A stretch of 64,000 bases of DNA from Demequina gelatinilytica (GTDB lineage Bacteria > Actinomycetota > Actinomycetes > Actinomycetales > Demequinaceae): assembly GCF_000971115.1 (NCBI RefSeq), contig NZ_BBLV01000007.1, positions 124,001 to 188,000 of the forward strand, written 5' to 3'. Made by a program: the position numbers and the translations under genes. Of the stretch, positions 52,441 through 63,255 are shown piece by piece; the first letter of the stretch is position 1; every line of letters starts with the position of its first letter. A model generated the notes under the pieces. It saw only the letters and a program-made list of their open reading frames with translations, was not told where the DNA came from and searched no databases.

Positions 52441-55400
52441 TCACCGCGCCCCGAGGCGACGACGCTGCCAGGCGCCCGTGCCGTACACCGCCGCGCCCGC
52501 TCCGAGCAGCACCGCAGCGAGCGCCGCCCAGAGTCCCACGCGCTCGGGACCTGTGCTGCCGAGCACGCCCCCATCACCGCCCGCGCCTCCGACGTCGCTG
52601 GTGTCCACGGTGGTCTCTGTGGAGCATGCGTCCTCGCTCACGCACGACCCGCCGACCTCGCCATCGGGCGTCACCAGGTTCAGCAGGGTGCCGTCCCCCG
52701 TCACGGGATCATCGATGGTCACGGAGTACAGCACGGAGACCGTGCCTCCGACCTCGAGCGGTCCGGTCCACGTGAGCGTGGGCTCGGACACCGTGACGGT
52801 GCCGGCCGAGGCCTCGGCATCGCCGTTGTAGGTCGCATCGTCGAGGACGTCGCTGAGATCGTCGGTGAACGATGCCGGGTCATCGTCCGTGTACGCGGCG
52901 GTGCCCGTCGAGGTCACCGTCACGAGGTAGCGGACCTCGTCGCCCGGGGACGCGACCGTCGTGTCGACGATCTTCTCGACCTCGAAGAGGCGGATCGGGG
53001 TGATCACCTGGCAGCCCTCGGGCATGTCCGGGATCGCCGCTGCGACCGGGGCGGACTGACGGAGGAAGCCGAGCGGCATCACCACCGGGCAGTTGGACTC
53101 GGGCGGGCCGAGGACGGCGTTGGCGAGCGTGATGTCACCATTCGGCGGGTCGTCGACCGTCACGGAGTAGGTGATGGTCGCTGACTCCCCCGCCGCGAGC
53201 GGTCCCGACCAGGACAGCACCGGCTCAGCGTAGGACACCGCGCCGCTGTCCGCGGCGGCGTCGCCGTTGTACGTCGCATCGTCCAGCACGCCCGTGAGGT
53301 CGTCGGTGAAGGCGGCGGGGTCCTCCTCCGTGTAGTCGCCCGTCCCCGTGGACGTCACCGTGATGCTGTACGTCACCACGTCGCCGGGCTCGGCGGCGTC
53401 GACGTCGGCGACCTTCTCGATCTGGAGGAGGCGGATGGGTGTCACCACGTGGCACTCGTCAGGGAGCTGGGCCTCGCCGTCGTCGCGCGGCGTCGCCACG
53501 AAGCAGTTGGACTCGGGCGGACCCAGCACCGCGTTGTCGAGCGAGGCGTCGCCCCCCGGGGGGTCGTCCACCGTGACCGAGTAGGTGATGGTGGCGGTCT
53601 CCCCCACGCCGAGCGAACCGGTCCACGTCAGGGTCGGCTCCGCGTAGGACACGGAGCCGGTGTCTGCCGTCGCGTCGTCGTTGTAGGTCGCGTCATCGAG
53701 GATCTCCGTGAGGTCGTCGTCGATCCGCGCCGGGAACAGGAAGGTGTACGGCACGGAGCCCGCGTTGGTCACCTCGATGGTGTAGGTCACCGTGTCCCCG
53801 ACCGTGACGGCGCCCTCCGGGTCCGCGGTCTTGACGATCTCCATGGCGCGGAGCGTGTGGTGCTCGATGCAGTCGGGGTCCTCCGACTCGGGATCGGTGC
53901 AGTTCGACTCCTCCGGACCGATCACCACGTTGTCGATCTCGCCGTCGCCCGTGACGGGCTCGTTGACGGTGACGGTGTACGTGATCGTCGCGGTCTCCCC
54001 CGGCTCGAGCGACCCGGACCAGCTGAGCTCGGAACCCGCGACGGAGGCGTCACCGATGTCCGCGGTCGGGCCGTCGGTGAGCGTGGCGTCGTCGAGGACG
54101 TTCGTGAGATCGTCCGTGAACGCCGCAGGCTGATCCTCGGTGTACGGCACCTGACCGGTGTTGGTCACGGTGATGGCGTACGTGATCGTGTCGCCCGGCT
54201 GCACCCGGACCCCGCGATCGGAGGTCTTCTCGAGCGCGAGCGCCTTGATGGGCACCTCGACGATGCAGCCCGTCTCCGTGCCGTCGTCGCAGTTCGACTC
54301 CGGCGGACCCACCACCGCGTTGCCCAGCACGCCGTCCCCGGTGAGCGGATCGTTCACCGTGGCCGAGTACGTGAGGGTCACCGTCTCCCCGACACCGATC
54401 GGCCCGAACCAGCTCAGGACCGGCGCGGCGTAGGTGAACCCTCCTGCCGACGCCGTGAAGTCGCTGTTGAGCGTCGCGTCATCGAGCATCTCGCTCATGT
54501 CATCGGTGAACGTCGCCTGCGTGTAGTCGACCTGGCCGATGTTCGTCAGGGTGATCGTGTAGGTGATCGTCTCGCCGGGCAGCATCTCGTCGTCCGGGTC
54601 GGCCACCTTGGTGATCTCGAGCGCCTTGACGGGCACCTCCGTGGTGCAGCGCTCCACGCCGTCCTCAGCGGCGCCGTCGTCGCAGTTGGACTCCGGCGGA
54701 CCCACCACCGCGTTGTCGAGCAGCCCGTCACCGGTCAGGGGCTCGTTCACCGTCACCGAGTACGTGATGGTGGCGGACTCGCCCGCCGCGAGAGCGCCCT
54801 CCCAGCTGAGGAGGGGTGCCGCGTAGGACGGCGTCCCCACGTCTGCCGCCTCGTCGTCGTTGTAGGTCGCATCGTCGAGCACCGCCGTGAGGTCGTCCTC
54901 GAAGCCCGCGGGCGCATCGTCTGTGTAGTCCGCCTGACCGATGTTCTCCACCGTCACCGTGTACGTCACCGTCTCGCCGGGCAGGACCTCGTTGTCCGGA
55001 TCGGCGACCTTGGTGATCTCGAGCGCCTTGATGGGCACCTCCGTGGTGCAGCCCTCTTCTGTGCCATCGTCGCAGTTCGACTCCGGCGGACCCACCACCG
55101 CGTTGTCCAGCAGCCCGTCGCCCGTGAGCGGATCGTTCACCGTCACCGAGTACGTGATGGTCGCGGACTCGCCCGCCGCGAGCGCCCCCTCCCAGCTGAG
55201 GATCGGTGCGGCGTAGGACGGCGTCCCCACGTCTGCCGCCTCGTCGTCGTTGTACGTCGCATCGTCGAGCACCGCCGTGAGATCGTCCTCGAAGCTCGCC
55301 GGATCCTCATCCGTGTAGTCGGTCTGCCCGGTGTTGGTCACGGTCACGGTGTACGTGACCACATTTCCCGGGAGGACCTCCGCGGCCGGCGCCGCCTGCT

Positions 55401-58400
55401 TGGTGATCTCGAGCGCCCGGATCGGGTTGGGCTCGACGCAGTCCGGATCCGTGGAGTCCACGCTGTCGCAGTTGGACTCGGGCGGCCCCACCACCACGTT
55501 GTCGAGCACGCCGTCGCCGCTCAGCGGCTCGTTGATGGTCACCGAGTAGGTGAGCGTCACGCTCTCCCCGACGTCCAGCGGCCCCTCCCAGCTGAGCACC
55601 GGCTCGGTGTAGGAGGGGGTCCCTCCCGTCGCCGTCGCATCGTCGTTGTACGTGGCGTCGTCGAGCAGATCGGAGAGGTCGTCCTCGAGGCTCGCGGGCG
55701 CATCCGCGGTGTAGTCCACCTGTCCGGTGTTCGTCACGGTGATCGTGTAGGTGACCACGTCGCCGGGCAGCACCTGTCCGTCGCTGTCCGAGGACTTCAC
55801 CAGCTCGAGCTCGCGCACGGGCACCTCGGTGGTGCAGCCCGTCTCCGTACCGTCGTCGCAGCTCGACTCGGGCGGACCCACCACCGCGTTGTCCAGCAGC
55901 CCGTCACCCGTCGGCGGATCGTTCACCGTCACCGAGTACGTCACCGTCACCGTCTCGCCAGCAGCAAGCGCCCCCTCCCAGCTGAGGATCGGTGCGGCGT
56001 AGGAGGGCGTGCCGGAGTCGGCCGCCTCGTCGTTGTTGTAGGTCGCGTCGTCGAGCACCGCCGTGAGGTCGTCCTCGAAGCTCGCGGGCGCATCGTCCGT
56101 GTAGTCGACCTGGCCGATGTTCTCGACCGTCACCGTGTACGTCACGGTCTCGCCGGGCAGCACCTCGTCGGCCGGGTCTGCGACCTTGGTGATCTCGAGT
56201 GCCTTGACGGGCACCTCCGTGGTGCAGCCCACTTCCGTGCCGTCGTCGCAGTTCGACTCCGGCGGACCCACCACCGCGTTGTCCAGCAGCCCGTCGCCCG
56301 TGAGCGGTTCGTTCACCGTCACCGAGTACGTGATGGTCGCGGACGCGCCTGCCACGAGAGCGCCCTCCCAGCTGAGGATCGGTGCCGCGTAGGACGGCGT
56401 CCCCACGTCTGCCGCCTCGTCGTCGTTGTAGGTCGCATCGTCGAGCACCGCGCTCAGGTCGTCCTCGAAGCTCGCCGGATCGTCATCCGTGTAGTCCGCC
56501 TGGCCGATGTTCTCCACCGTCACCGTGTACGTCACGGTCTCGCCGGGCAGCACCTCGTCGTCCGGATCGGCGACCTTGGTGATCTCGAGCGCCTTGACGG
56601 GCACCTCCGTGGTGCAGCCCTCTTCTGTGCCGTCGTCGCAGTTCGACTCCGGCGGACCCACCACCGCGTTGTCCAGCAGCCCGTCGCCCGTGAGCGGATC
56701 GTTCACCGTCACCGAGTAGGTGATGGTGACGCTCTCACCGGCGGCGACCGGCCCCGTCCAGCTCAGCGTCGGTGCGGCGTAGGACGGCGTCCCCACGTCT
56801 GCCGCCTCGTCGTTGTTGTACGTCGCGTCGTCGAGGACCTCGCTGAGGTCGTCCGTGAACGTGGCGTCGAAGTAGTCCACCTGCCCCGTGTTGGTGACGG
56901 TCACCGTGTAGGAGACTGTCCCTCCGGGCAGCACCTCGCCTGCGGGATCCGCGGTCTTCTCGATCTCGAGCGAGGCGATCGGCACCGTGACCTCGCACTC
57001 CGGCCCCGCGTCGTCCGCATCGCAGTTGGACTCAGGCGGCCCCACCACGGCGTTGGTCAGCAACCCGTCTCCGCTCGGCGGGTCGTTGACGGTCACGGTG
57101 TACGTGACGACCACGGTCTCGCCCACGTCGAGCGGCCCCGACCAGGACAGGACGGGCTCCGCGTAGCTGGTGCTTCCGCCCGTGGCCGACGCGTCGTCGT
57201 TGTAGACCGCGTCGTCGAGGACGTCGGAGAGGTCGTCGGTGATCGAGGCGGGGTCCTCCGCCGTGTACGGCGCCTGGCCCGTGTTGGTGACGGTGATCGT
57301 GTAGGTGATCTCGTCCCCGGGCTCCGCGCTTCCCACCGCGTCGGAGTACTTGACGATCGCGACGGCCTTGACCGGCACCTCCGTGGTGCAGCCCTCTTCT
57401 GTGCCGTCGTCGCAGTTCGACTCCGGCGGACCCACCACCGCGTTGTCCAGCAGCCCGTCGCCCGTCGGCGGATCGTCGACCGTCACCGAGTACGTGACGG
57501 TGACGCTCTCGCCTGCGGCGAGCGCACCCTCCCAGGACAGCACAGGCTCGGCGTAGGACGGCGTGCCCGAGGATGCCGCCTCGTCGTTGTTGTAGGTCGC
57601 GTCATCGAGGACGGCAGTGAGGTCGTCCTCGAAGCTCGCGGGCGCATCGTCCGTGTAGTCGACCTGGCCGATGTTCTCCACCGTCACCGTGTAGGTCACG
57701 GTGCCACCCGCGGGCACCTCACCGGTGGGGTCGGCGACCTTGGAGATCTCGAGCGCCCTGACCGGCACCTCCGTGGTGCACGGGTCCTCCGTGCCGTCGT
57801 CGCAGTTCGACTCCGGCGGACCCACCACCGCGTTGTCGAGCAGGCCGTCGCCGCTCATCGGGTCGTTCACCGTGACGGAGTAGGTCACGGTGACGGTCTC
57901 ACCGACCGCGAGGGCGCCCTCCCACGACAGGACCGGCGCGGCGTAGGACGGCGTCCCCCCGTCCGCAGCCTCGTCGTTGTTGTAGGTCGCGTCATCGAGC
58001 ACCGCCGTGAGGTCGTCCTCGAAACTCGCCGGAGCATCGTCCGTGTAGTCGACCTGACCCGTGTTGGTCACGGTGACGGTGTACGTGACCACGTCACCGG
58101 GGAGGGCCTCGTCCTCGGGGTCCGCCGTCTTGGAGATCTCGAGCGCCTGCACGGGGTTCGGCTCGACGCAGTCGGGGTCCGTGGTGTCGGCGCTGTCGCA
58201 GTTCGACTCGGGCGGACCGACCACCACATTGGCGAGGATGCCGTCGCCGCCCGGCGGGTCATCCACCGTGACCGAGTAGGTGATGGTGACGGTCTCGCCG
58301 GCCGCGAGCGCTCCCTCCCAGCTCAGGATCGGGTCGGCGAAACCGACCGACCCCGAGCTCGCCGCGGCGTCGCCGTTGTACGTCGCGTCATCGAGAACAT

Positions 58401-61400
58401 CGGAGAGGTCGTCGGTGATCGACGCCGGATCGTCGACGGTGTAGTCGGTCTGTCCCGAGTTGGTCACGGTGATGGAGTAGGTGACCACGTCGCCCGGGAG
58501 GGAGCTGCCGTCCCCATCCGAGGACTTGACGATCTCCAGGGCGCGCACGGGGACCTCGGTGGTGCAGCCCTGCTCCGTCCCGTCGTCGCAGTTCGACTCC
58601 GGCGGACCCACCACCGCGTTGTCCAGCAGCCCGTCGCCCGTCGGCGGATCGTTCACCGTCACCGAGTACGTGATGGTCGCGGACTCGCCCGCCGCGAGAG
58701 CGCCCTCCCAGCTGATGAGGGGTGCCGCGTAGGACGGCGTGCCGGAGTCGGCCGCCTCGTCGTTGTTGTAGGTCGCGTCGTCGAGCACCGCGGTGAGGTC
58801 GTCCTCGAAGCTCGCCGGGTCATCGGCCGTGTAGTCCGTCTGCCCGGTGTTCGTCACCGTGACCGTGTACGTCACCACGTCGCCCGGGAGCGCCTGATCC
58901 GCGGGGTCGGCGGTCTTGAGGATCTCAAGAGCGCGCACGGGAACCTCGGTGGTGCAGCCCTCCTCTGTGCCGTCGTCGCAGTTCGACTCCGGCGGACCCA
59001 CCACCGCGTTGTCCAGCAAGCCGTCACCCGTCAGCGGATCGTTCACCGTCACCGAGTACGTCACGGTCACGCTCTCACCTGCCGCGAGCGCCCCCTCCCA
59101 GGACAGGACCGGCGCGCTGTACGAGGCCGTCCCGGAGGACGCCGCCTCGTCGTCGTTGTAGGTCGCGTCGTCGAGCACCGCGCTCAGGTCGTCCTCGAAG
59201 CTCGCCGGGTCATCGGCCGTGTAGTCCGTCTGCCCGGTGTTCGTCACGGTCACCGTGTACGTCACCGTGTCTCCGGGCGCCACGGCGTCCGCAGGCGAGG
59301 CCGTCTTGACGATCTCGAGCGAGCCGATGGGCACGGTGGTGGTGCAGTCCGGATCCGTCGAGTCCAGCTCGCAGTTGGACTCGATCGGCCCGACCACCGC
59401 GTTGGTGAGCAGCCCGTCACCCGAGGGCGGATCGTTCACGGTGACCGAGTAGGTGATGGTGACGCTCGCGCCGACCGCGAGCGGCCCGTACCAGCGCACC
59501 TCGGGGGCGGCGTAGTTGGGGACGCCGCTGGTGGCCGCGAGGTCGCCGTTGTACGTCGCGTCGTCGAGGACATCCGAGAGGTCGTCCTCGAAGTAGGCGA
59601 GCAGGTAGTCCGCCTGACCGGTGTTGGTGAGGGTGACGGTGTAGCTGACGGTGTCGCCGGGCACCACCTCGCCCGTCGGCGAGGCCGTCTTGACCATCTC
59701 GAGCTGGCGTACGGGCACCTCGGTGGTGCAGCCCTCCACGCCTGCCTCAGCGGCGCCGTCGTCGCAGTTGGACTCCGGCGGACCCACCACCGCGTTGTCG
59801 AGCAGCCCGTCACCGCTGATCGGGTCGTTCACGGTGACCGAGTACGTGATCTCGATGCTGTCACCGGCGGAGAGCGCTCCCTCCCAGGACAGGATCGGGT
59901 CGGTGAACCCGACGGTCCCCGACGGTGCGGCACCGTCGCCGTTGTACGTCGCGTCGTCGAGCACCGCCGTGAGATCGTCCTCGAAGCTCGCGGGGGCATC
60001 GTCCGTGTAGTCGACCTGGCCGATGTTGTCGACCGTCACCGTGTACGTCACGGTGTCGCCCGGGCGGACGGCGCCTCCGGGGTCGCTCACCTTGGTGATC
60101 TCGAGCGCACGGACCGGCACCTCGGTGGTGCAGCCTTGCTCCGTGCCGTCGTCGCAGTTCGACTCCGGCGGACCCACCACCGCGTTGTCCAGCAAGCCGT
60201 CACCCGAGAGCGGATCGTTCACCGTCACCGAGTAGGTGATGGTGACGCTCTCCCCCGCCTCGAGCGGCCCCTCCCACGACAGCACCGGGTCGGAGAAGGA
60301 CACGGAGCCGGAGCCCGCCGAGCCGTCGCCGTTGTACGTCGCATCGTCGAGCACCGCGCTGAGATCGTCCTCGAACGATGCAGGGTCGCCGACGGTGTAG
60401 TTGAAGGTCCCGGTGTTCTCGACGGTGACGGTGTAGGTCACGGTGTCGCCCGGCAGCACCTCGTCCACGGGGTCGGCGGACTTGGTGATCTCGAGCCCGC
60501 GGATCGGGTCCGGCTCGATGCAGTCCGCGTCCTGCGTCTCAGCCGGGTCGGTGCAGTTGGACTCCGGCGGCCCGACCACCACGTTGTAGAGGTTCCCGTC
60601 GCCGCTCACGGGGTCGTTCACCGTCACGGAGTAGGTGATGGTCACCGACTCGCCCGGCTCGAGCGCGCCCTCCCAATGCAGGGTGGTGCCGGCGACGGTC
60701 ACCGTGCCGCCCGTCGCCGAGGCGTCGCCGTTGTAGGTCGCGTCGTCGAGGACGTCGCTGAGGTCGTCGTCGATCGCGGCCGGGGAGTCGGCGGTGTACG
60801 CCACCTCGCCGTTGTTGGTGACCGTGACCTCGTAGGTGATGGTGTCGCCGGGCAGCGCGCTGTCCGTGCCGTCGGAGCTCTTGACGATGTCGAGCGCACG
60901 GATGGGCACCTCGGTGGTGCAGCCCTCCTCGGTCCCCGTGTCGCAGTTGGATTCGGGCGGGCCCACCACCGCATTGTCGAGCAGCCCGTCGCCGGACGGC
61001 GGCGAGTTCACGGTCACGGAGTACGTGACCGTCACGGAGTCGCCCGCAGCGAGGGCGCCCTCCCAGTGCAGGGTCGGGGACGTGAACGATGCGGTCCCGG
61101 AGGAGGCCGTCGCGTCACCGTTGTACGTCGCATCGTCCAGCACGCCCGAGAGGTCGTCGTCGAACGACGCCGGCGCATCGGTCGTGTAGTCGGCAGGACC
61201 CGGGTTGGTCACGGTGACCGTGTAGGTGACGGTGTCCCCGGGCGCGGCCTCGTCGTCCGGGGACACGGTCTTGAGGATCTCGAGCGCTCGGATGGGGAGC
61301 TCGACGGTGCAGTCGGGGTCGCTCGAGCCGTCGGCACAGTTGGACTCCTCCGGCCCGACCACGGTGTTGCTCAGCAGCCCGTCGCCCGAGACCGGGTCGT

Positions 61401-63021
61401 TCACCGTGACCGAGTACGTGATGTCCGCGGACTCGCCGATCGCGAGCGCGCCGGTCCAGCTGAGAACCGGGTCCGCGTAGCTCGCCGTACCCGAGGACGC
61501 GGCCTCATCGTTGTTGTAGACGGCGTCGTCGAGCACGTCGCTGAGGTTGTCGGTGATCGATGCGAGGCCGTTCTCGTCGTTGTAGTCGACCTCGCCCGTG
61601 TTGGTGACCGTGATGGTGTAATCGACGGTGTCGCCGGGCAGCGCGGAGTCCGCGGGGTCGGCGCTCTTGGTGATGGTGAGACCCGGGTCGGGGAGGTCGA
61701 CGTAGATGGTGTAGTCCTCGACCTCGCCGCGGCCGGTGATCCCGTCCGGGTTCTCGGACAGGTTCGCGCCGGGTGTGGTGCGCAGCCGCAGGTAGGTCGG
61801 ATCGTCCACGGTCTGGACGGCATCGTCCGGCACGATCCAGGACAGGTGCGCGTTGCCGTCCACGCACTCGACGGCGCCGGCCCGCTCCGAGCCCTGGAAC
61901 GTGCCGTCGAAGTTCCAATCGACCCAACCAGAGACATAGCCCGGTCCCACGCACGCGACATCGAGGTCGTACGGCTCTCCGTAATCGGTGTCGAGCACGC
62001 CAGGAGGCGAGATGCCGTCCTCGTCCGTCGCTGGATTTCCCGTGTTGTCGTCGTAGTCGGCGCCGGGGCTGCCGAGGTAGAGCGCATCCGAGTCGACGGT
62101 GGAGCCGAGGATGGGGACGTAGCCGCCCGGGGTGCCGAGCACGAACGACTCGTCGGAGACGTTGGTGTCGCCGCCTCCCACCGTCCCCCCGCTCCAGGTG
62201 GACTGGAGCAGCGAGCCCGCCGAGCCGTAGCTGAGGGGCGCGTCGCCGAAGTCGGCCTCGAAGACCACGCCCAGGGCCACGGCGCTGTAGCCGCCGCCGT
62301 GCATCTGGACGTGCGCCCCCGTCGCGCCCTCCATGAACCCGACCGCGATCGGGCCGTAGGTGTTGTTGACCTCGGAGCACTGGGTGTCATCCGAGGCCAG
62401 GCGAAGCGTGTTGCCCGACACGGTCGCGATCGTGGAGGTGTCGCACGCGCGCGTGCGGTCGATCACACGCCAGGTCGCGTTCTGGTTGGGCGTCGCCTCG
62501 ACGTACTCGCCCTGGCGGAAGTTGTTGCTCTCCGCATCGGCGACCACGAGCCCCCGGACCTCGACCTCCTCGTCTCCCAAGAAGACCGAGCAGTCGAAGT
62601 CGAAGTCGACCGTGCCGGCGTTGTCGACGTTGGCGATGCCCGAGACCAGCTGGTTCGCCCCGTCGATCCCTCCGATGTTGTACAGGTTGTCGAGCGCGTC
62701 GCCACGATAGTTGCCCGGGCGGTATGCACGGATGGGCCCGACCACGTTGGTGATGGTGCAGGTGGTGGTGAGGGTCTGGAGGCCGATCGTCCTCGTGTTG
62801 CTCCTGGTGGTGCCGGACGGGATCGACTCGCCGTCCGCGCCCCACTCGAACCAGTCGATGTAGCCCGGGTAGAGCCCATCGCCGCCCTCGGCATAGCGCG
62901 CCTCCGAGGGCGCACCCACGGTGACGAGCGTGGTCACCGCGAGCACGAGCAGCACCCCTAGCGAAGCGAGCATGCGCTGCGGCGTCCGCAGCGCAAGCGC
63001 TCTCCTGTTGTTGCGGTTCAC
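52441..63021 (-). CDS. giant CshA-type adhesin with 23 DUF11-like repeats and LGSTG cell-wall sorting signal
   Basis: About 3,526 residues starting at GTG 63021, with GGGGGA upstream; a longer reading from 63078 has no ribosome site. A basic N-terminus and hydrophobic segment (RMLASLGVLLVLAVTTLVTVG) form the signal peptide. Then comes a CshA-like adhesive head of about 240 residues (begins with YAEGGDGLYPGYIDWFEWG and contains the FGDAP-SYG motif), then a GEVED region (RGEVEDYTIYVDLPDPG). Twenty-three tandem DUF11-like repeats of about 130 residues follow, each ending in ESNC...C...VP. The tail reads VLGSTGPERVGLW, a membrane helix and WQRRRLGAR: a degenerate LPxTG sorting signal. The predicted role is a long surface fibril for attachment; each repeat can form an intradomain disulfide. 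Confidence 0.9.
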   Translation of the reverse strand: MNRNNRRALALRTPQRMLASLGVLLVLAVTTLVTVGAPSEARYAEGGDGLYPGYIDWFEWGADGESIPSGTTRSNTRTIGLQTLTTTCTITNVVGPIRAYRPGNYRGDALDNLYNIGGIDGANQLVSGIANVDNAGTVDFDFDCSVFLGDEEVEVRGLVVADAESNNFRQGEYVEATPNQNATWRVIDRTRACDTSTIATVSGNTLRLASDDTQCSEVNNTYGPIAVGFMEGATGAHVQMHGGGYSAVALGVVFEADFGDAPLSYGSAGSLLQSTWSGGTVGGGDTNVSDESFVLGTPGGYVPILGSTVDSDALYLGSPGADYDDNTGNPATDEDGISPPGVLDTDYGEPYDLDVACVGPGYVSGWVDWNFDGTFQGSERAGAVECVDGNAHLSWIVPDDAVQTVDDPTYLRLRTTPGANLSENPDGITGRGEVEDYTIYVDLPDPGLTITKSADPADSALPGDTVDYTITVTNTGEVDYNDENGLASITDNLSDVLDDAVYNNDEAASSGTASYADPVLSWTGALAIGESADITYSVTVNDPVSGDGLLSNTVVGPEESNCADGSSDPDCTVELPIRALEILKTVSPDDEAAPGDTVTYTVTVTNPGPADYTTDAPASFDDDLSGVLDDATYNGDATASSGTASFTSPTLHWEGALAAGDSVTVTYSVTVNSPPSGDGLLDNAVVGPPESNCDTGTEEGCTTEVPIRALDIVKSSDGTDSALPGDTITYEVTVTNNGEVAYTADSPAAIDDDLSDVLDDATYNGDASATGGTVTVAGTTLHWEGALEPGESVTITYSVTVNDPVSGDGNLYNVVVGPPESNCTDPAETQDADCIEPDPIRGLEITKSADPVDEVLPGDTVTYTVTVENTGTFNYTVGDPASFEDDLSAVLDDATYNGDGSAGSGSVSFSDPVLSWEGPLEAGESVTITYSVTVNDPLSGDGLLDNAVVGPPESNCDDGTEQGCTTEVPVRALEITKVSDPGGAVRPGDTVTYTVTVDNIGQVDYTDDAPASFEDDLTAVLDDATYNGDGAAPSGTVGFTDPILSWEGALSAGDSIEITYSVTVNDPISGDGLLDNAVVGPPESNCDDGAAEAGVEGCTTEVPVRQLEMVKTASPTGEVVPGDTVSYTVTLTNTGQADYLLAYFEDDLSDVLDDATYNGDLAATSGVPNYAAPEVRWYGPLAVGASVTITYSVTVNDPPSGDGLLTNAVVGPIESNCELDSTDPDCTTTVPIGSLEIVKTASPADAVAPGDTVTYTVTVTNTGQTDYTADDPASFEDDLSAVLDDATYNDDEAASSGTASYSAPVLSWEGALAAGESVTVTYSVTVNDPLTGDGLLDNAVVGPPESNCDDGTEEGCTTEVPVRALEILKTADPADQALPGDVVTYTVTVTNTGQTDYTADDPASFEDDLTAVLDDATYNNDEAADSGTPSYAAPLISWEGALAAGESATITYSVTVNDPPTGDGLLDNAVVGPPESNCDDGTEQGCTTEVPVRALEIVKSSDGDGSSLPGDVVTYSITVTNSGQTDYTVDDPASITDDLSDVLDDATYNGDAAASSGSVGFADPILSWEGALAAGETVTITYSVTVDDPPGGDGILANVVVGPPESNCDSADTTDPDCVEPNPVQALEISKTADPEDEALPGDVVTYTVTVTNTGQVDYTDDAPASFEDDLTAVLDDATYNNDEAADGGTPSYAAPVLSWEGALAVGETVTVTYSVTVNDPMSGDGLLDNAVVGPPESNCDDGTEDPCTTEVPVRALEISKVADPTGEVPAGGTVTYTVTVENIGQVDYTDDAPASFEDDLTAVLDDATYNNDEAASSGTPSYAEPVLSWEGALAAGESVTVTYSVTVDDPPTGDGLLDNAVVGPPESNCDDGTEEGCTTEVPVKAVAIVKYSDAVGSAEPGDEITYTITVTNTGQAPYTAEDPASITDDLSDVLDDAVYNDDASATGGSTSYAEPVLSWSGPLDVGETVVVTYTVTVNDPPSGDGLLTNAVVGPPESNCDADDAGPECEVTVPIASLEIEKTADPAGEVLPGGTVSYTVTVTNTGQVDYFDATFTDDLSEVLDDATYNNDEAADVGTPSYAAPTLSWTGPVAAGESVTITYSVTVNDPLTGDGLLDNAVVGPPESNCDDGTEEGCTTEVPVKALEITKVADPDDEVLPGETVTYTVTVENIGQADYTDDDPASFEDDLSAVLDDATYNDDEAADVGTPSYAAPILSWEGALVAGASATITYSVTVNEPLTGDGLLDNAVVGPPESNCDDGTEVGCTTEVPVKALEITKVADPADEVLPGETVTYTVTVENIGQVDYTDDAPASFEDDLTAVLDDATYNNDEAADSGTPSYAAPILSWEGALAAGETVTVTYSVTVNDPPTGDGLLDNAVVGPPESSCDDGTETGCTTEVPVRELELVKSSDSDGQVLPGDVVTYTITVTNTGQVDYTADAPASLEDDLSDLLDDATYNDDATATGGTPSYTEPVLSWEGPLDVGESVTLTYSVTINEPLSGDGVLDNVVVGPPESNCDSVDSTDPDCVEPNPIRALEITKQAAPAAEVLPGNVVTYTVTVTNTGQTDYTDEDPASFEDDLTAVLDDATYNDDEAADVGTPSYAAPILSWEGALAAGESATITYSVTVNDPLTGDGLLDNAVVGPPESNCDDGTEEGCTTEVPIKALEITKVADPDNEVLPGETVTYTVTVENIGQADYTDDAPAGFEDDLTAVLDDATYNDDEAADVGTPSYAAPLLSWEGALAAGESATITYSVTVNEPLTGDGLLDNAVVGPPESNCDDGAAEDGVERCTTEVPVKALEITKVADPDDEMLPGETITYTITLTNIGQVDYTQATFTDDMSEMLDDATLNSDFTASAGGFTYAAPVLSWFGPIGVGETVTLTYSATVNDPLTGDGVLGNAVVGPPESNCDDGTETGCIVEVPIKALALEKTSDRGVRVQPGDTITYAITVTNTGQVPYTEDQPAAFTDDLTNVLDDATLTDGPTADIGDASVAGSELSWSGSLEPGETATITYTVTVNEPVTGDGEIDNVVIGPEESNCTDPESEDPDCIEHHTLRAMEIVKTADPEGAVTVGDTVTYTIEVTNAGSVPYTFLFPARIDDDLTEILDDATYNDDATADTGSVSYAEPTLTWTGSLGVGETATITYSVTVDDPPGGDASLDNAVLGPPESNCFVATPRDDGEAQLPDECHVVTPIRLLQIEKVADVDAAEPGDVVTYSITVTSTGTGDYTEEDPAAFTDDLTGVLDDATYNGDAAADSGAVSYAEPVLSWSGPLAAGESATITYSVTVDDPPNGDITLANAVLGPPESNCPVVMPLGFLRQSAPVAAAIPDMPEGCQVITPIRLFEVEKIVDTTVASPGDEVRYLVTVTSTGTAAYTDDDPASFTDDLSDVLDDATYNGDAEASAGTVTVSEPTLTWTGPLEVGGTVSVLYSVTIDDPVTGDGTLLNLVTPDGEVGGSCVSEDACSTETTVDTSDVGGAGGDGGVLGSTGPERVGLWAALAAVLLGAGAAVYGTGAWQRRRLGAR
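52600..61690 (-). repeat. 23 tandem ~390-bp coding repeats of the adhesin
   Basis: The units are similar at DNA level, above all in the block encoding GDGLLDNAVVGPPESNC, which recurs nearly base for base in more than half of the units. Central units are most alike, while the first three and last four are more divergent. Three subtypes recur in order (see findings). The period is about 394 bp. Confidence 0.9.
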
Positions 63022-63255
63022 GCTGATCCCCCTGCACCTTCGGCGGAATTCATCAACCGTAAGTCGGGGTGTGGACAACTGCGAGTTTTAGGACAATCAG
63101 GTATAACCGCACCATTGCGGCGCGCGAGAGGGGCGCGGCGCGCCCACGTTCCGACGCGCAGCCTCGACCTCGGACGCGCTCAAGCGCCGCGGCGTGCGTC
63201 GAAGGCGATCAGCGTGCAGAGACGGCTCGCAGCATGGCCCGTCGGAGACGCGACC
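63022..63255. promoter_or_regulatory. AT-rich promoter region of the adhesin gene
   Basis: About 230 bp without a gene. Around 63080-63108 the sequence becomes AT-rich in a 70% GC background and contains TAAAACT and TTATACC on the minus strand, either of which could be a -10 element. A CCGCA/TGCGG hairpin lies at 63107-63120. The adhesin leader would be 50-90 nt long. Confidence 0.45.

Follow-up and report, generated by a model that had tools for sequence, protein, structure and literature searches.

The SpaA shaft pilin of Corynebacterium diphtheriae reportedly, going by the title of a 2009 paper by Kang, is built of Ig-like modules in tandem that carry both isopeptide and disulfide bonds. 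Tips made of CshA_NR2 and GEVED domains sit on varied stalks, which is described in PMC10952558 as domain shuffling. In a 2025 survey of isopeptide domains (PMC12617251), the crystal structure of a CLIPPER (DUF11) domain, 9IFR, shows a Lys715-Asn806 bond, and DUF7927 appears in Table 1 among the predicted isopeptide families, with Lys125/Asp161/Asn225. According to the same survey, predicted disulfides accompany isopeptide bonds in 29.7% of CLIPPER domains and in 41.3% of Actinomycetota isopeptide domains.

The locus described here lies in a 64,000-nucleotide stretch of Demequina gelatinilytica DNA (the window; contig NZ_BBLV01000007.1, positions 124,001 to 188,000). Its product is confirmed as a striking yet ordinary, well-built representative of a known, only recently described kind of adhesin, in which a CshA-type head tops a stalk made of predicted isopeptide domains. 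We consider it very probable that it is a single-chain, wall-anchored fibrillar adhesin with covalently closed stalk domains. The parts deserving specialist attention are the strict double signature of its repeats and the missing oxidase.

Gene, head and C-terminal tail

The minus-strand open frame at 52441-63078, started at TTG in the open-reading-frame translation, is a single gene, annotated here at 52441..63021 with a GTG start, a TGA stop and 3526 codons. The GTG at 63021 appears to be the likeliest start, because a putative Shine-Dalgarno sequence, AGGGGGA (63027..63033, minus strand), ends five bases before it and a signal peptide-like N terminus, VNRNNRRALALRTPQRM-LASLGVLLVLAVTTLVTVG-APSEA (62899..63021, minus strand, read from the translation), follows it; this peptide would export the adhesin. 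The computed mass is ~358 kDa, with the first 40 residues left off, and the computed pI is 4.05. A scan for promoters and terminators gave no signal exceeding chance, and a plasmid search with the head region as query returned zero matches.

The tip of the protein is composed of a CshA_NR2 domain (62263..62862, minus strand; PF18651, residues 73-272 of the TTG-started frame, 184.7 bits) followed by a GEVED domain that includes the GEVED motif (61705..61938, minus strand; PF20009, residues 381-458, 46.9 bits, E 5e-12), the order found in CshA-related fibrillar adhesins. The E-value of the CshA_NR2 match is 2.9e-54 with Pfam on the window protein and 1.5e-56 in the search across the genus. The remaining elements of a CshA-related fibrillar adhesin are also present, namely a long tandem stalk (52606..61680, minus strand; 23 stretches of PF25549, DUF7927, 1486.6 bits in total) and a sorting-signal-like tail (52444..52563, minus strand) consisting of LGSTG, a hydrophobic stretch and QRRRLGAR, which was read by eye from the translation. 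The NR1 segment of CshA proper was not found, the NR2 match starting 12 residues past the likely signal peptide; with this "catch" segment missing, fibronectin binding is not to be assumed. Neither is the stalk that of CshA proper, as no CshA-repeat family was found in it among 25 of the 26 Pfam families listed. Modelling the head from six sequences gave a poor result (pLDDT 58), and two comparisons of the head with PDB sequences returned antibody chains only (5 rows, best E 0.014; 9 rows, best E 0.004).

The sequence-only reading had placed the gene at 52441-63021, and one minus-strand frame with its GTG at 63021, the end coordinate proposed, is indeed what we find. Its CshA-type head and GEVED region agree with the Pfam matches, and its long repeat stalk and wall anchor with the 23 repeats and the LGSTG tail. 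The description of the stalk as 23 DUF11-like repeats is right in number and needs refinement in name: DUF11 likewise scores with 23 stretches in Pfam, and DUF7927, a DUF11 relative, scores best.

Stalk repeats and their double signature

Motif segmentation divides the stalk into 23 units of 127-147 aa with pairwise identities of 41-92% (median 62%). On the minus strand, repeats 1 to 6 occupy 61285-61680, 60895-61284, 60496-60894, 60106-60495, 59704-60105 and 59320-59703; repeats 7 to 12 occupy 58930-59319, 58540-58929, 58144-58539, 57754-58143, 57364-57753 and 56971-57363; repeats 13 to 18 occupy 56590-56970, 56200-56589, 55810-56199, 55414-55809, 55024-55413 and 54622-55023; and repeats 19 to 23 occupy 54241-54621, 53845-54240, 53428-53844, 52987-53427 and 52606-52986. 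They belong to DUF7927, with individual repeats at 71-98 bits among the matches listed for the organism's own genome, where the Pfam cut-off is 31 bits. NCBIfam reports TIGR01451 matches as well as TIGR04226, the isopeptide-forming fimbrial domain, in 21 stretches. The array is also visible to TRF at the DNA level (period 390, score 5160, span 54086-61551), with repeats 21-23 and portions of repeats 1 and 20 falling outside the span. A higher-order periodicity of 6-7 repeats was considered and rejected, since the mean identity by lag has no clear peak.

The stalk is strongly acidic, with 375 Asp and 209 Glu versus 29 Lys and 22 Arg, in a count that has the boundary of one repeat off by one residue. 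The use of lysine within 52606-61680 is largely confined to the putative cross-link: 23 of the 29 are the Lys5 discussed below, in a protein with a pI of ~4.

A long plus-strand frame opposite the gene (53449-62961, 3170 aa) was rejected as a gene and mostly reflects how codons are used in a repetitive gene rich in GC. It is in phase with the adhesin gene, whose third positions are 93% G or C, and synonymous shuffles of the adhesin's own codons give a mean longest antisense run of 2136 codons, 6 of 300 reaching the observed 3258; this leaves a mild surplus over the shuffles. Among the relatives, the antisense strand is open over 3524 of the 3524 codons of the D. iriomotensis gene; the corresponding longest runs are 3404 of 3412 codons (Nocardioides), 3543 of 4316 (D. 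subtropica), 1816 of 4186 (D. mangrovi) and 781 of 2724 (Demequina sp. NBRC 110051).

Three residues, Lys5, Asp43 and Asn104 (numbered after repeat 15), are invariant in 23/23 window repeats and in 140/140 repeats of six CshA-headed proteins, the window's included. The same triad is found in 78/78 more divergent repeats from six loci in five further Demequina genomes, all lacking a CshA_NR2 match; 2 of the 80 hits in this set were dropped for scoring below 25 bits or spanning no more than 100 profile positions. In a sample of the phylum (the window's genome included), 89 of 396 genomes had a DUF7927 match, 35 of them above cut-off. Among 29 loci fetched from other genera, the triad is kept in 56 of 58 full-length hits, the other two aligning Gly or Ala to the Lys; 14 of 72 hits, with a missing triad column or shorter than 105 aa, had been dropped. 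Many of the matches from these other genera are weak and DUF11-like.

The sequence-only reading had suggested modelling two neighbouring repeats, and an AF2 model of repeats 14-15 (59 aligned sequences) gives a confident fold, with a pLDDT of 97.3 and a pTM of 0.87. The triad lies in model strands 2-8 (Lys), 39-44 (Asp) and 101-107 (Asn), and these positions, the pLDDT and the match to 9ifr assign the repeat to the CnaA-like fold. In VIA-align, the CLIPPER domain 9ifr is the best single-domain match at rank 2 (Z 14.2, rmsd 2.1 Å, 118 residues, 25% identity), PrgB being rank 1 (Z 14.3). They are followed at ranks 3-11 by C-terminal domains of the antigen I/II type (SspB, SpaP, AspA, BspA), including 2wza, 3opu and 5dz9, which carry isopeptide bonds according to their titles or to Table 1 of PMC12617251. 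Integrin Ig-like domains match the model too (Z ~11-12 in VIA-align, and the first seven rows of Foldseek), so that the bond is not proven by fold alone. The narrow repeat profile gave no match among PDB sequences. A broad profile built from 27 repeats has 9ifr first, weak taken alone with E 0.014 for the sequence and 0.1 for the stretch, and aligns the repeats' Lys, Asp, Asn and second Cys with 9ifr Lys10, Asp44, Asn101 and Cys116. We note that Asp44 of 9ifr chain A, aligned with Asp43, becomes 749 by the offset of Lys715 and Asn806, and the catalytic residue is given as Asp748 in PMC12617251.

It had been proposed, speculatively, that a conserved lysine (LEITK) and asparagine (DNAVVGP) form isopeptide bonds. 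Both residues were well chosen, being invariant and aligned with the bond residues of 9IFR; the equally invariant Asp43 had been missed. As judged from these alignments, the idea is well supported and right in substance, and at family level it is already published as a prediction. Each domain would thus hold an intramolecular Lys5-Asn104 bond, formed with the assistance of Asp43, and 23 such CnaA-like domains would make a stiff stalk that holds the CshA_NR2 and GEVED head off the wall.

The second part of the signature is a pair of cysteines. Exactly two are present in 23/23 window repeats, the literal motif ESNC in 21 (repeat 15 has ESSC and repeat 23 is without the motif), which agrees with the conserved cysteine pair first described. 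Among the six CshA-headed proteins, exactly two follow Asn104 in 140/140 repeats, 6-26 residues apart, most often 8 (65 repeats) or 9 (30 repeats). Two cysteines are also found in 77/78 divergent repeats, the exception being a single Cys in a matched stretch that ends before the region of the second. The second Cys aligns with 9ifr Cys116, which is Cys821 of the CTTC disulfide given in PMC12617251. Beyond the genus, the 56 triad hits comprise 27 with two Cys, 8 with one and 21 with none; two are present in 18/19 hits of five loci (L043-L047) and in 9/37 of the others (L048-L071), so the pair tracks the closer DUF7927 members more than the wider fold.

The pair had been called unusual for fibrillar stalks, a claim that finds no support in the share of Actinomycetota isopeptide domains with predicted disulfides quoted above from PMC12617251; the pair itself appears not to be unusual, yet its strictness in these repeats is notable. 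Taken together, the conserved residues suggest that each repeat is probably locked twice, by an isopeptide bond and by a disulfide that would close the loop at the end of the domain. Force or proteases at the surface would then meet a chain with every stalk domain covalently closed.

Possible disulfide oxidation and anchoring

Searches in which control genomes were positive, Corynebacterium glutamicum among them for VKOR, detected neither VKOR nor DsbB in the genome, and VKOR was found in only one of the 44 genomes of the genus. This speaks for a stalk with isopeptide bonds only, its cysteines being reduced or otherwise engaged, for example between chains. We regard that alternative as improbable: the strict two cysteines per repeat and their 6-26 residue spacing fit an intradomain pair, the second aligns with a Cys of the 9IFR disulfide (PMC12617251), and, according to PMC9974433, C. 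diphtheriae oxidises its pilins despite having no VKOR homologue. Against it stands also a candidate oxidant in the window's own genome, where one Thioredoxin_4/DsbA-like protein with CPIC has a MauE/DoxX protein with a CGC motif directly upstream (gene pair at L042:1381-2925, contig G000:C31).

MauE was found in 43/44 genomes of the genus, and a DsbA-like relative lies beside it in 10/10 MauE loci fetched, nine with CPxC; the tenth (L073) has CVHC. G034, the sole VKOR-bearing genome of the 44, contributes one of these loci (L078), and the pair is therefore not limited to VKOR-less genomes. A literature search found no paper that, judging by title, ties MauE/DoxX to disulfide formation. The possible replacement of VKOR by the MauE-DsbA-like pair in Demequina is a lead rather than a demonstration. 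We hold only tentatively, as a doubtful proposal, that the fibre has both bonds in every stalk domain and that its disulfides are made by this membrane pair in place of the missing VKOR and DsbB. If true, the stalk would offer a natural substrate for probing a little-studied oxidative route, each chain of the CshA-headed relatives bearing as many as 28 Cys pairs.

Two sortases were found in the genome, both on contigs other than the adhesin's. One is class E (239.1 bits, cut-off 160) and the other is closest to class F, below its cut-off. The class E motif is LAXTG according to PMC5148588, and the window tail, LGSTG, does not conform to it; the tails of the relatives are LGSTG, LGSTG, LGETG and LGTSG in four Demequina and LPGTG in Nocardioides. 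Despite this mismatch, the class E enzyme, as the genome's one clear sortase, is likely to attach the C terminus of the adhesin to the wall.

The TIGR04226 matches, and the pilin domains among the structural matches of the repeat model, could instead point to the shaft subunit of a sortase-assembled pilus. Such an assembly is very improbable here: neither sortase reaches the cut-off of class C, the pilus class, or is encoded on the adhesin's contig. In addition, the neighbouring window genes tested, four in all, encode a LURP-one-related protein, a decarboxylase and the two subunits of transhydrogenase, and a head with 23 repeats would already make a complete fibril. A single chain, most likely anchored by the class E sortase, is the reading we retain.

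Relatives and comparison with known adhesins

CshA_NR2 was found in 8/44 genomes of the genus and DUF7927 in 13/44 (12 above cut-off), the two occurring within one frame in 5/44, the window's genome counted. Identity of the head to that of the window is 95% in D. subtropica, 80% in D. mangrovi, 78% in D. iriomotensis, 72% in Nocardioides sp. GY 10113 and 71% in Demequina sp. NBRC 110051, and mean repeat identity is 92%, 80%, 81%, 69% and 65%, respectively. Other genomes of the genus, in which CshA_NR2 was not matched (loci L027 on G016:C8, L028, L029 and L030-L031), have DUF7927 arrays too, each locus holding 8-31 repeats and the longest frame running to 5690 codons.

The head conservation bears on a further explanation, in which the protein serves mainly as a structural coat or as part of the biofilm matrix, its head no longer binding. 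The lack of a known ligand and the missing NR1 would suit this, and we give it a small but real chance. The head is conserved about as well as the stalk in all five relatives and shows no decay, though binding is not thereby proven, and CshA_NR2 heads occur at the tips of varied stalks (PMC10952558).

The number of repeats is 23 in the window, 28 in D. subtropica, 28 in D. mangrovi, 23 in D. iriomotensis, 16 in NBRC 110051 and 22 in Nocardioides. The repeats of the window and D. subtropica are collinear at 85-97% identity (mean 0.918), with five extra, unpaired repeats in D. subtropica (repeats 18-22 of L025) at a site between window repeats 17 and 18; the borders of this block are uncertain because neighbouring repeats resemble one another. 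All 28 D. mangrovi repeats pair in order with those of D. subtropica, and the D. iriomotensis array has a gap in the same part as the window's. The distribution of the block, present in D. subtropica and D. mangrovi and absent in the window and D. iriomotensis, does not follow head similarity. The window's closest relative is D. subtropica, yet its repeat count equals that of D. iriomotensis, which leaves three possibilities: repeated loss or gain of the block, recombination of genes, or collapse of the draft assemblies.

PntA, encoding NAD(P) transhydrogenase, adjoins the adhesin gene in D. mangrovi, and both PntA and the LURP-one-related gene do so in D. subtropica and D. iriomotensis; the flanks fetched from NBRC 110051 and Nocardioides yielded no match to any of the four neighbours tested. 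The relative in Nocardioides sp. GY 10113 (L035) has 22 repeats, an LPGTG tail and a head as close to the window's as that of NBRC 110051 (72% vs 71%). From its sequence, this relative possibly stems from transfer between families.

These comparisons give DUF7927, a family named by a single paper in the literature searched, a strict signature, with the triad in 218/218 repeats and two Cys in 217/218, which helps the selection of stable protein scaffolds. With 16, 22, 23, 23, 28 and 28 domains, the six proteins offer a natural range of stalk lengths for a single head type, and the locus points toward a possible VKOR replacement in an actinobacterial genus.

With the 9IFR CLIPPER domain, the repeats have in common the fold, the Lys/Asp/Asn columns and a disulfide (predicted here) at the end of the domain with its second Cys aligned; they differ from it in sharing only 25% sequence identity, in a Cys spacing of 6-26 residues instead of CxxC, and in that the host of 9IFR is Gram-negative. 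The SpaA shaft pilin of C. diphtheriae is likewise actinobacterial, with tandem Ig-like modules and both kinds of bond, which in our case are predicted, but SpaA polymerises into a pilus whereas the Demequina protein is apparently one long chain. As in Periscope proteins such as Sgo_0707 (PMC8201768), repeat number sets the length of the stalk, here 16 to 28 repeats. According to the same paper, adjacent SHIRT domains are 82-100% identical, compared with a median of 62% in the window, and our variation in number is seen between species, with one protein per species. CshA of Streptococcus gordonii has the same overall plan of a CshA_NR2 and GEVED head, a long repeat stalk and a C-terminal anchor. 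Its stalk comprises 17 repeats of ~100 aa (PMC10952558), whereas the Demequina protein carries no NR1 before NR2 and has 23 DUF7927 repeats that bear the isopeptide triad and the Cys pair.
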